Assembly (NCBI RefSeq): GCF_019056395.1
Contig: NZ_CP077639.1
Coordinates: forward strand, 1,738,001 to 1,802,000
Direction: 5' to 3'
Length of the DNA stretch: 64,000 nucleotides
From: Terribacillus sp. DMT04
GTDB taxonomy: Bacteria; Bacillota; Bacilli; Bacillales; Amphibacillaceae
The notes beneath the pieces are model-generated. The model saw only the letters and a program-made list of their open reading frames with translations. It searched no databases and had not been told where the DNA came from. A program made the position numbers and the translations under genes. This document shows positions 1 to 3,014 of this stretch, piece after piece (position 1 is the first letter of the stretch; each line of letters opens with the position of its first letter).

Positions 1-810
1 TAAGAAGGGGGTAATCTCCTCATCCTTTACTTTTCGTCCCATCACAAACTGCTGTGTTGATTCCAGATTCACAAGAATGACATTCTTTCCTTTTGCAACA
101 CCAAAATAATCAGACTGAATATCCTTGTTGGTGCGCTCCAGGTAAGCAGCAGCTTTCTCATAATCTTTCTTTGACGCAAATTCACTGCTGAGCTCAGCGC
201 GAACAGTTTGGTAGATATCATATCCGTGGTAATAAACCGGACCTAGCTCACTTACCTTAGCAGTACGGTTAAAGCTGCCATCATGCTGATCTCCAGCGCC
301 AATTTGACTAATGCCGATGTTAAGTCCAATAAGCAGGATAATAGCACTAGTAAAAACTCCTTTTCTCTTCCAGGTCAAACGCACCGGTTTCGGCCGTTTG
401 ACCAGCCACCAGATTAGCAGAAAAACGGTATCCGCAAACAACACCAAATCTAGCGGGTCCATCAATTCTACTGTACTCTGGCTAAGACCGCCGACGTTCT
501 GGAATTGGAATAGGATAGGCAATGTCACAAAGTCGATGTAAAAGCGAAAATACAGTAAGTTACCGTAGAGAACGCCTGTCAGGATTATATGCAGAATTAA
601 TAGTGAGCCGGCTCGCAGTTTACGAGCAAAAACGTATAACAGCAGCACGAGCACTGCGACAGACGACAAACTTGAAAAAAACAACTGTATATAATCAAAC
701 GGTTCATATAATGGCAAGTCGAAATAGATAATACTTATTAGATACATCTTACATAACAGAAGGACCGCTCCAACCGAGCAGTAACCTTTGACAGTGGACA
801 AAAATCTCAT
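1..810 (-). CDS. lipoteichoic acid synthase family protein, N-terminal part (cut by window start)
   Basis: This is the first 270 codons of a gene running off the left edge. LtaS-family enzymes polymerise glycerol phosphate from phosphatidylglycerol onto a glycolipid anchor on the outer membrane face. The N-terminal ~190 residues form about five hydrophobic segments, as in LtaS. A linker then leads into the start of the sulfatase-like catalytic domain, with NVILVNLEST carrying the conserved metal-binding Glu. The nucleophilic Thr lies outside the window. The ATG at 808-810 overlaps the stop of the upstream fusion gene as ATGA, so the two are translationally coupled. Bacilli carry several LtaS paralogues (LtaS, YfnI, YqgS, YvgJ), and the paralogue cannot be fixed from this part. 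Confidence 0.85.
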   Translation of the reverse strand, partial: MRFLSTVKGYCSVGAVLLLCKMYLISIIYFDLPLYEPFDYIQLFFSSLSSVAVLVLLLYVFARKLRAGSLLILHIILTGVLYGNLLYFRFYIDFVTLPILFQFQNVGGLSQSTVELMDPLDLVLFADTVFLLIWWLVKRPKPVRLTWKRKGVFTSAIILLIGLNIGISQIGAGDQHDGSFNRTAKVSELGPVYYHGYDIYQTVRAELSSEFASKKDYEKAAAYLERTNKDIQSDYFGVAKGKNVILVNLESTQQFVMGRKVKDEEITPFL

Positions 811-2411
811 TGGGTGATAGTTTCCTTCTTTCCGATCAGGCTGGCAAGTTCCTCCGTGACACGAACCAGATCCTTCTCTTCATGATGCCCCATAACAGCT
901 AACTGCACCCAATTGTTTTCAATCAAGTAGCTGCTATTGCAGCTGATCAGGAATCCTTTCTCCGCAAGTATGCGTCCAACCGTTTCGGACCGGCATTCCT
1001 TAGGAAGGGTGATTGTCAGTATACCTGGAGCACGGCATGTGTTGTCTGCCAAAATGGAAATTCCCTTTTGATTGCAAAGGCTGACAAGTTTATCTGTCAA
1101 CAAGCTAACTTGCTTTATAATATTCTTTTTTTCCCATTGATTGATTGCTACAGTTAGTGCCGCGAGCTGATTAGAAGAATGTGTAAATGGTGTACTTTCA
1201 TATTCATGGTAAAGACCAAGATCCAGATAACGCGGAATGCTGTTTGCGATTTTGATTTCATGATGATAGAAAACGAATGCTAACCCCGCGTAAGAAGCCA
1301 ATCCTTTGCCGCTTCCAGCGGTTGCTAAAAAGACATCGCTCAAATCAATGGGCATATTACCAAGGGAGCTGCAGCAATCCAGGATAAGCTTGCTGTCTAT
1401 ATGCTTGGTGATTCGCTTCAGCTTATCCAAGTCCTGCAGCACACCAGTTGACGTTTCTGCATGTACAGCCCAGATCCATCCAACACGATGCTTCTTTGCT
1501 TCTGCTAAAATGTGCTGATAATCAAATGCTTGTCCCCAAGGTATCTCCAAGGTAGTGAAAGATAGTCCTGCCCGCTGTGCGTGATCTGTCAGTCGCAAAC
1601 CAAATTCACCATTCACGAGGATAAGTCCGTGCTGTTTTAGAAGGGAAAGCTGAGCTGCTGCAGCATCATTTCCAAGTGTGCCCGATCCCAGCATAATTTG
1701 CACCTGTGAAGAATGTGTCAGTTTTTTAAGTTTGTCACGCAGCTGATGAAGCTGATCAATAAAAACAGGCGCGCGATGCGACCGTGCAGTCTGACCCATC
1801 GCCTGCTTTACTTCGTCGGCCATAGGAACAGGTCCCGGCAGAAAGCTAACAGGTTCTTGCTTCGAAAGTATTCGCTGAAAAGCCCGAGCTTTACGCTGGA
1901 ACAATTTTTCCGTCACGTACATCGGCTGGAACTGCGCATCTCCATTTCCAGTCAAACTACCAAACGGAACGAATCCCATATGCCGGTAGAGCTTTTGCTG
2001 CCGCATAACACCGGAAATAACAGCCATGTCAAAGCCATTATCTAGACAATAGTTAATCAAAGCCTCAGCAAGGCGGAAGAAAACAAAGCTGTTCCGATAA
2101 GCTTTTTCAACAGCAAGCAGCCGAATTTCACATTTGGCTTTATGCGGAGGAAGAAGATCATCAAGGTTATCTAATTTCTGATCAAGTGAAAAAGGTCTAT
2201 TCGAACGAAAAGCAATCATAGCAACGACCACTTGTCCGTCAAGCCCAATAATATATGTATTTTCTTCATTAAAGCGATCGATTCGGCTGCGTCCCTCATT
2301 CTCTTCATGCTGAGGAATTTCTTCTGTAAACGTACGATAATTCAGAGCGTGTATTTGTTCGAATTCCCATGTTTCTGTTGCGATTTTATACTGTAATTGT
2401 GTCGAATTCAT
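807..2411 (-). CDS. fusion of GNAT-type acyltransferase and class-V PLP aminotransferase
   Basis: Two-domain protein of 534 aa. Residues 1-180 look like a GNAT acyltransferase of the autoinducer-synthase/FeeM sort (EIRLLAVEKAYRN core, HMGFVPFG near the end). Residues 188-534 resemble the alanine-glyoxylate/2-aminoethylphosphonate aminotransferase family: PGPVP entry motif, GSGT at 242-245, HAETSTG at 317-323, the PLP-ring Asp in LILDCC (D345), and a likely Schiff-base lysine K369 in ATAGSGKG. The gene lies 6 bp after a plsY-type gene and overlaps an LTA-synthase-type gene by 4 bp, which suggests a role in lipid or polyglycerol-phosphate chemistry. The family matches are by motif, the substrate is unknown, and the pathway is inference. 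No frameshift is seen between the domains, so the fusion appears genuine. Confidence 0.75.
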   Translation of the reverse strand: MNSTQLQYKIATETWEFEQIHALNYRTFTEEIPQHEENEGRSRIDRFNEENTYIIGLDGQVVVAMIAFRSNRPFSLDQKLDNLDDLLPPHKAKCEIRLLAVEKAYRNSFVFFRLAEALINYCLDNGFDMAVISGVMRQQKLYRHMGFVPFGSLTGNGDAQFQPMYVTEKLFQRKARAFQRILSKQEPVSFLPGPVPMADEVKQAMGQTARSHRAPVFIDQLHQLRDKLKKLTHSSQVQIMLGSGTLGNDAAAAQLSLLKQHGLILVNGEFGLRLTDHAQRAGLSFTTLEIPWGQAFDYQHILAEAKKHRVGWIWAVHAETSTGVLQDLDKLKRITKHIDSKLILDCCSSLGNMPIDLSDVFLATAGSGKGLASYAGLAFVFYHHEIKIANSIPRYLDLGLYHEYESTPFTHSSNQLAALTVAINQWEKKNIIKQVSLLTDKLVSLCNQKGISILADNTCRAPGILTITLPKECRSETVGRILAEKGFLISCNSSYLIENNWVQLAVMGHHEEKDLVRVTEELASLIGKKETITQ

Positions 2412-2417
2412 TGTAAG

Positions 2418-3014
2418 TCACCTTTCGTTACGTAATAGCAAATAACTCCAGGCAGCTCTCACATGTGTGTGATGTGCTGCTAGGACAAGGACAGTCACTA
2501 CAACGTAAACTGCGAATGTAAGTACGCCCAACCGTAAAAGCGGGAGCAGTGCAGCTGTAATCACGTAAGCGAGCAATCCTGAGGCACTAAATCTTCTTAA
2601 GAAAAGATAGATACATAGAAATACGGCAATTAAGAGAAAGGTTGCTTGATAAGAAAAGATTACAAGTGCTCCAAGTGACACAGCAATTCCTTTACCGCCG
2701 CGAAAACGAAGCTGAATCGGGAAAATATGCCCTAATACGGCCGCAACAGCACATAGACCTGCGATAACTTCTGTTCCACCGCTCCAATGGACAAGCAGCA
2801 CAGCAAGCATGCCTTTAGCTAAATCAAATATAAGAACGAGCAGAAAGCCTTTCTTCCCCATTGATCTTCCGGCATTTGTCGCGCCTGCATTACCGCTTCC
2901 AGTCGTTCGTATATCAATTCCTTGCTTCCATTTCACAAGATAATAAGCTCCATTCAAGGAACCTAGAATATATGCTAGAACAATCCACCACCATGCAAAC
3001 ATTTCGCCTTCCAT
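2418..3014 (-). CDS. plsY: PlsY-family acyl-phosphate:glycerol-3-phosphate acyltransferase
   Basis: PlsY moves an acyl group from acyl-phosphate to the sn-1 position of glycerol-3-phosphate at the membrane. The 198-aa product has about five membrane segments. Motif 2 (GSGNAGATNAGRS) and motif 3 (GHIFPIQLRFRGGKG) are intact. The first motif, usually GS-x-P-x-G, reads GSLNGAYY and so lacks its proline. The ATG at 3012-3014 follows AAGGTGG at good spacing. It is the first gene of a unit with the GNAT/aminotransferase fusion and an LTA-synthase homologue. Since Bacilli normally keep housekeeping plsY elsewhere (next to parE), this is probably a second, specialised copy. That last point is inference. 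Confidence 0.85.
   Translation of the reverse strand: MEGEMFAWWWIVLAYILGSLNGAYYLVKWKQGIDIRTTGSGNAGATNAGRSMGKKGFLLVLIFDLAKGMLAVLLVHWSGGTEVIAGLCAVAAVLGHIFPIQLRFRGGKGIAVSLGALVIFSYQATFLLIAVFLCIYLFLRRFSASGLLAYVITAALLPLLRLGVLTFAVYVVVTVLVLAAHHTHVRAAWSYLLLRNER

Follow-up and report, generated by a model that had tools for sequence, protein, structure and literature searches.

What do a PlsY-type acyltransferase, a protein that fuses an N-acyltransferase to an aminotransferase, and a homologue of the lipoteichoic acid (LTA) synthase LtaS make when their genes lie side by side? Such a set occupies the minus strand at the beginning of a 64,000-nucleotide stretch of Terribacillus sp. DMT04 (contig NZ_CP077639.1, positions 1,738,001 to 1,802,000; hereafter the window). 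We propose that the product of the unit is a phosphatidic acid analogue with a serinol core and an amide linkage, and we put the probability of this reading, whose chemistry is deduced from sequence, at about 50%. PlsY and the fusion appear to be the functional partnership, with ltaS added in a subset of Bacilli. An original prediction, made from the letters of the window, had described the three genes as a coupled unit outside the known LTA gene sets and had suggested an undescribed lipid or polymer pathway. The genes and their parts are as follows.

2418..3014, minus strand: plsY-like gene, 198 amino acids (aa); PF02660 (G3P_acyltransf), 142 bits; a specialised paralogue
807..2411, minus strand: fusion gene, 534 aa; domain matches to a FeeM-type GNAT acyltransferase and a class-V pyridoxal phosphate (PLP) aminotransferase (Aminotran_5)
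1884..2396, minus strand: GNAT half of the fusion, residues 6-176
819..1856, minus strand: class-V aminotransferase half of the fusion, residues 186-531
1..810, minus strand: ltaS-like gene, 5' end only (270 of its 611 codons); the complete gene matches NF053595 with 630 bits
3041..3069 (L002 10070-10042), minus strand: promoter-like site TTGAAA-17-TACTAT just upstream of plsY, from a consensus scan

Gene order and distribution

We confirmed the coupling of the three genes from their reading frames: a gap of 6 bp separates plsY from the fusion, the fusion overlaps ltaS by 4 bp, and the domain families agree with those first assigned. The complete ltaS-like gene encodes 611 aa (L002:5976-7811), and its remainder lies outside the window. 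A terminator-like hairpin of 10 pairs (7 of them G-C) followed by TTTTT begins 5 nucleotides past the ltaS stop codon, and this hairpin together with the tight spacing fits a single transcript for plsY, the fusion and ltaS. Promoter-like matches in the stretch showed no excess over shuffles (13 versus 11.4), and terminator-like matches were somewhat commoner (8 versus 4.6, standard deviation 2.2). The genome is 3.5 Mb (G000), and the nearest named relatives of its fusion come from Terribacillus species. It holds two further LtaS homologues and a separate PlsY, which bears out the claim that the three genes run together as a unit distinct from the housekeeping LTA genes. We rejected housekeeping status for either neighbour on the basis of these separate copies, the operon LtaS forming its own clade, and the operon PlsY falling outside a 51-member clade of other PlsYs. 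The separate clade also speaks against a downstream housekeeping ltaS with its own promoter, a case that the original prediction had raised, as does a consensus scan that found no promoter-like site on the ltaS strand for several hundred bases ahead of the gene.

We found a full-length fusion in all 10 genomes of the genus (this one included) and in 7 of 51 other relatives. Fusion loci also occur on contigs named Jeotgalibacillus, Cytobacillus, Peribacillus and Bacillus, in Verrucomicrobial metagenome-assembled genomes (MAGs) and in Saezia; plsY adjoins the fusion in 24 of 25 such loci, the exception being Saezia. In an even draw of 398 genomes from the class Bacilli, where we took fusion matches at E <= 1e-60 and examined all of their neighbourhoods, 50 genomes held the fusion, with plsY adjacent in 38 and ltaS adjacent in 4, ltaS detection in 30 of the 50 loci being based on 1,500-base flanks. 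A Verrucomicrobial sample (the phylum of one Verrucomicrobial genome) gave the fusion in 11 of 194 genomes, with plsY adjacent in 10 and ltaS in none; the one match without an adjacent plsY is partial. All three genes lie together on a 690-kb plasmid of Cytobacillus spongiae. Because other genera show the same order of the three genes and Verrucomicrobial genomes the plsY-fusion pair, we conclude that the arrangement is not due to chance. The counts divide the claim of a three-gene unit: the plsY-fusion core is conserved, but ltaS is a lineage-specific addition, and we rejected a central place for it in the unit. Fusion genes lacking a neighbouring ltaS are common, and those lacking an adjacent plsY are fewer (12 of 50 Bacilli, 1 of 11 Verrucomicrobial genomes).

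Residues of the PlsY, LtaS and fusion proteins

We counted PlsY residues in an alignment with Aquifex PlsY, comparing 69 operon proteins with 51 others, mostly housekeeping (142 frames reduced to 120 different ones, among which close relatives remain). The PlsYs of L143 and L050 were counted as operon copies, being adjacent to a fusion frame that is split or begins far upstream; three high-scoring extras (G013, G039 and G044) and a fragment (G022), all from fusion-less relatives, were left out of the residue reading. Ser142 is absent from every operon PlsY (0 of 69, mostly replaced by Gly) and present in 49 of 51 others. Asn180 is found in 19 of 69 versus 51 of 51, and Thr41 in 19 of 69 versus 49 of 51; Arg occupies position 41 in 50 of the operon proteins and never in the others. 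His177 is present throughout (69/69 and 51/51), and Ser35 (68/69 versus 50/51), Arg45 (64/69 versus 50/51) and Lys104 (57/69, with Arg in 11, versus 51/51) are mostly kept. The window PlsY has Gly at the Ser142 position and His at the Asn180 position and keeps Ser35, Arg45 and Lys104. In the solved PlsY, according to the accessible text of PMC5700162, Ser142 and His177 contact the 2-hydroxyl of glycerol 3-phosphate (G3P), Asn180 contacts its phosphate, and Thr41 contacts the acyl carbonyl. Most operon PlsYs retain the phosphate clamp and the acyl-phosphate loop; all lack the G3P contact of Ser142, and most lack that of Asn180. Loss of the Ser142 contact fits an acceptor without a free 2-hydroxyl, either N-acyl-serinol phosphate, with its bulky 2-amide, or dihydroxyacetone phosphate (DHAP), with its 2-ketone.

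The 51 other PlsYs form one clade (support 98/92) with no operon PlsY inside it. Another, better-scoring PlsY is present in 17 of 17 fusion genomes among the relatives and in 16 of 19 of a second set, in which the exceptions are two MAGs, one with the operon copy alone (G454) and one in which the second match is only a fragment (G455), together with Saezia (G462). Among 61 genomes (this one included), all 17 with the fusion carry an operon PlsY; the 44 without it hold one GARN-type PlsY (G039) and one divergent PlsY that also lacks Ser142 and Asn180 (G056). The G056 protein (L255:1907-2524) has a GAAN motif, and its gene lies directly after one encoding 368 aa. A PF02660 search showed that 11 of the 12 Bacilli genomes without an adjacent plsY hold an unlinked PlsY with the GARN motif, Met142 and Asp180, a class that we assigned by residues, outside any tree.

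The LtaS proteins of the operons, which come from several genera, are likewise set apart. All 20 were split from 24 same-genome paralogues by one branch (Shimodaira-Hasegawa-like approximate likelihood ratio test, 100%) in a tree made by a quick method with no bootstrap; short frames L106 and L107 were dropped (their genomes being represented by L217 and L218), and more distant homologues lay outside the tree. Nine catalytic or substrate positions, numbered as in Staphylococcus aureus LtaS, are identical in 20 of 20. There are consistent differences at four positions, including two that directly follow the GDHYG motif; His and Ala of the compared paralogues are replaced in the operon proteins by Tyr474 and Gly477. 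The complete Terribacillus operon LtaS scored 630 bits, below the NCBIfam (NF053595) equivalog cut-off of 970, and the best solved relatives of the operon LtaS are 2w8d, 4uoo and 2w5q. This pattern suggests that the operon LtaS remains active in glycerol-phosphate transfer and has taken on a different, conjectural acceptor.

The predicted structure of the fusion has a mean predicted local distance difference test score of 87.9. Its GNAT half resembles FeeM and acyl-homoserine lactone synthases and carries the features of a long-chain N-acyltransferase domain. The aminotransferase half belongs to the PhnW/AGT group and keeps Lys369 at the PLP-lysine position. Gln503 is present in 29 of 29 fusions at a site where 11 of 11 readable controls have Arg; as controls we used further class-V aminotransferases encoded by related genomes, 13 frames from which L032 (28 aa) was dropped and among which L020 ends short of the Arg column. 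A wider fusion alignment gave Gln503 in 79 of 91 rows and a gap in 12, some genes being present twice. In AEP transaminases (PhnW/AepZ; AEP, 2-aminoethylphosphonate), the Arg at this site binds the acidic group of the substrate. In one locus (L143:1531-3101), the fusion is split into two frames next to an intact PlsY frame, and 4 of the 50 Bacilli fusion matches contain one internal stop.

The proposed pathway and its alternatives

In the pathway that we propose, the aminotransferase half would convert DHAP to serinol phosphate (2-amino-1,3-propanediol phosphate), which the FeeM-like GNAT half would N-acylate from a long-chain acyl-acyl carrier protein or acyl-coenzyme A. The expected product, N-acyl-serinol phosphate, resembles a lysophosphatidic acid in which an amide replaces the ester, and the dedicated PlsY would acylate its free hydroxyl to give N,O-diacyl-serinol phosphate. 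An alternative order, with PlsY acting first on DHAP, would lead to the same product. In some Bacilli, the LtaS paralogue may use that lipid, or its dephosphorylated form, as a glycerol phosphate acceptor or anchor, which is the least certain step. The N-acyl serinol of gut studies would be a dephosphorylated intermediate or a breakdown product. The suggestion of an undescribed lipid or polymer pathway survives in part, with a lipid built on an amino-derived core as the best reading, but the fusion itself most likely belongs to a type already described, the N-acyl serinol synthase family (Cohen 2017, MIBiG BGC0001683), an orthology that we infer from a likeness in description.

Several observations weigh against the serinol-phospholipid reading. 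The fusion usually stands without an adjacent ltaS. A PF02660 search found no altered-type PlsY in one genome that has the fusion (G168), Saezia has the fusion with a single PlsY of housekeeping score, and a lone operon-type PlsY (G039, L254:1972-2532; GARN, Ala142, Gly180) occurs in a genome where the fusion was not detected. Divergent members of the fusion family (f49) depart from the aminotransferase signature, or have gaps in it, at some positions. Position 142 is Ser in 52.6% and Ala in 33% of 7,288 PlsY homologues, and N180H almost abolishes the activity of Aquifex PlsY, as given in the part of PMC5700162 available to us; the changes in the operon PlsYs could mean another acceptor or poor activity. 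The Terribacillus operon PlsYs keep Thr41 and, with weak support (66/86), share their side of the drawn root with the housekeeping copies. A third PlsY type, with a GASN motif, has Val142 in 13 copies, keeps Asn180, and occurs in Bacilli with or without the fusion (loci L237, L248, L250-L253, L256, L257 and L259-L263). As judged from these alignments, the position-142 change is one that sets the operon PlsY apart from housekeeping PlsY, not from every paralogue. We slightly lowered our confidence in the serinol-phospholipid reading, and in the broader form of it given below, because the GASN paralogues and the G056 copy lack Ser142 and because a search for phosphoenolpyruvate (PEP) mutase had no positive control.

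One alternative is that the fusion makes free N-acyl serinol, secreted or used as a signal, while the PlsY and LtaS neighbours tune the acyl supply or are incidental. Escherichia coli with such genes was reported to make N-palmitoyl serinol (PMC9605164 and PMC11271093, each in its accessible part), and no PlsY lies beside the fusion in 12 of 50 Bacilli genomes and in Saezia. However, an altered PlsY accompanies the fusion in 11 of those 12 genomes even when unlinked, and loss of the serine that contacts the 2-hydroxyl in 69 of 69 operon PlsYs is hard to explain by a general supply of acyl groups. We consider this alternative unlikely, though it deserves weight.

The aminotransferase half could instead make 2-aminoethylphosphonate (AEP), another phosphonate or an amino acid, leading to an N-acylated phosphonolipid or an N-acyl amino acid lipid. 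Its best family match is PhnW-AepZ and its fold matches that of PhnW, but the match of 134.5 bits is below the equivalog cut-off of 360.8, and the active-site Arg is replaced by Gln503. The PEP mutase model matched 9 of 21 fusion genomes below its cut-off and none above it; 14 control genomes also gave none above it, so this test lacks a positive control. The Ser35, Arg45 and Lys104 clamp kept in most operon PlsYs suggests a phosphorylated three-carbon acceptor. The low score, Gln503 and the PEP mutase result led us to lower the phosphonolipid or AEP product, which we regard as improbable.

We give still less credence to a special lipoteichoic acid or modified glycerol-phosphate polymer, in which PlsY and the fusion would build the anchor and the unit would exist for the sake of ltaS. 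Within the compared set, only fusion operons contribute to the operon LtaS clade, and its members keep their catalytic residues, yet with ltaS beside the fusion in only 4 of 50 Bacilli and 0 of 11 Verrucomicrobial genomes, the core exists without it. Chance co-location or decay, to which the split fusion of L143 and the internal stops would point, is very hard to reconcile with a gene order kept in distant genomes, conserved active-site residues and tight spacing.

Taken more broadly, the serinol-phospholipid reading would mean that at least two phyla make N-acyl,O-acyl-serinol phosphate membrane lipids by means of a dedicated bifunctional synthase and a re-tooled PlsY, that in some Bacilli a dedicated glycerol-phosphate transferase uses these lipids as its acceptor or anchor, and that N-acyl serinol, the gut signal, is a by-product; we hold this wider statement tentatively, at somewhat less than even odds. 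If it is true, there is a class of serinol phospholipids half-way between glycerophospholipids and ceramide-type lipids, and N-acyl serinol, described as a commensal signal at human GPR119, gains a role inside bacteria as a member of a phospholipid pathway. Such lipids, with an amide where others have an ester, should withstand phospholipases and alkali. The comparison also names a specific residue set by which a PlsY may take a new substrate and points to a possible new type of anchor for teichoic-acid-like polymers.

A Pfam scan of ten neighbour genes, picked by eye from nine loci, revealed no third constant partner. Eight belong to the SNF2 helicase, fatty acid desaturase, ABC transporter, DAO oxidoreductase, beta-propeller, aminopeptidase P, cupin and SDF transporter families, and the other two had no clear Pfam match. 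The next gene downstream of the window ltaS, past the hairpin, encodes an SDF-family transporter. A flavin adenine dinucleotide oxidoreductase-like gene lies just upstream of a plsY-less fusion in two genomes (L117:351-1478, DAO family; L146:1241-2425). An occurrence in Krumholzibacteriota (L043; 1 of 80 genomes of the phylum, on a 7.6-kb contig) was set aside as a case for that phylum: its PlsY and fusion fall among the Verrucomicrobial-sample sequences, and it is possibly misbinned. On this MAG contig, labelled Krumholzibacteriia, a fatty acid desaturase gene lies at the end of the fusion (L043:4146-5345). Contig JAGGRA010000010.1 (L039), titled Pseudomonas sp. ISL-84, carries a Bacilli-type operon; a PlsY from this genome (L158) has a Cytobacillus PlsY as its sister, and the name looks wrong.

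Comparison with known systems

The nearest known system is N-acyl serinol synthase. Genes from Bacillus sp. 2_A_57_CT2 and Desulfitobacterium hafniense DP7 gave N-palmitoyl serinol in E. coli (PMC9605164, accessible text), and the available portions of PMC11271093 and PMC10666787 name Gemella as the source instead. In the excerpted PMC12795557, two phosphonate clusters find their closest match, a weak one, in MIBiG BGC0001683 (N-acyl serinol, Bacillus sp. 2_A_57_CT2), as expected if the cluster holds an AEP-transaminase-like domain. Host enzymes that acylate N-acyl serinol to phospholipid-like lipids appear as speculation only in the accessible part of PMC12594153. The synthase and our fusion are probably of one enzyme type: a Bacillus is among the sources of the synthase, and the fusion would likewise N-acylate a serinol; unlike our proposal, the literature, in the parts available, treats N-acyl serinol as the product and as a host GPR119 ligand and mentions no PlsY or LtaS partner. 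Cohen's 2017 N-acyl serinol synthase gene reportedly also has an aminotransferase domain. The literature searched, much of it in part and with few subscription papers and the marine serinolipid papers mostly outside it, gave no description of a bacterially made serinol phospholipid or of a PlsY partner.

The N-terminal PLP domain of RtxA, in rhizobitoxine synthesis, was proposed to convert DHAP to serinol phosphate (PMC3222319, available portion). RtxA resembles the fusion, as far as its partial description allows, in joining a PLP aminotransferase to another enzyme and in the same proposed reaction, but its partner domain resembles O-acetylhomoserine sulfhydrylase rather than a GNAT, and we likened the two by description. 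The operon PlsYs share with PlsY the fold family, the GGKG loop, a mostly kept Ser35, Arg45 and Lys104, and His177 in all, and differ in the loss of Ser142 (69/69) and Asn180 (50/69) and in the change of Thr41 to Arg (50/69). The operon LtaS proteins have the catalytic Thr, metal ligands and substrate residues of LtaS and differ in forming a separate clade tied to the fusion. The logic of the plsY-fusion unit is similar to that of ornithine and glycine lipid synthesis, in which N-acylation by a GNAT is followed by O-acylation. In those lipids, a PlsC-type enzyme places the O-acyl group on a 3-hydroxy fatty acid, whereas the plsY-fusion unit implies a PlsY-type enzyme and a phosphorylated core.

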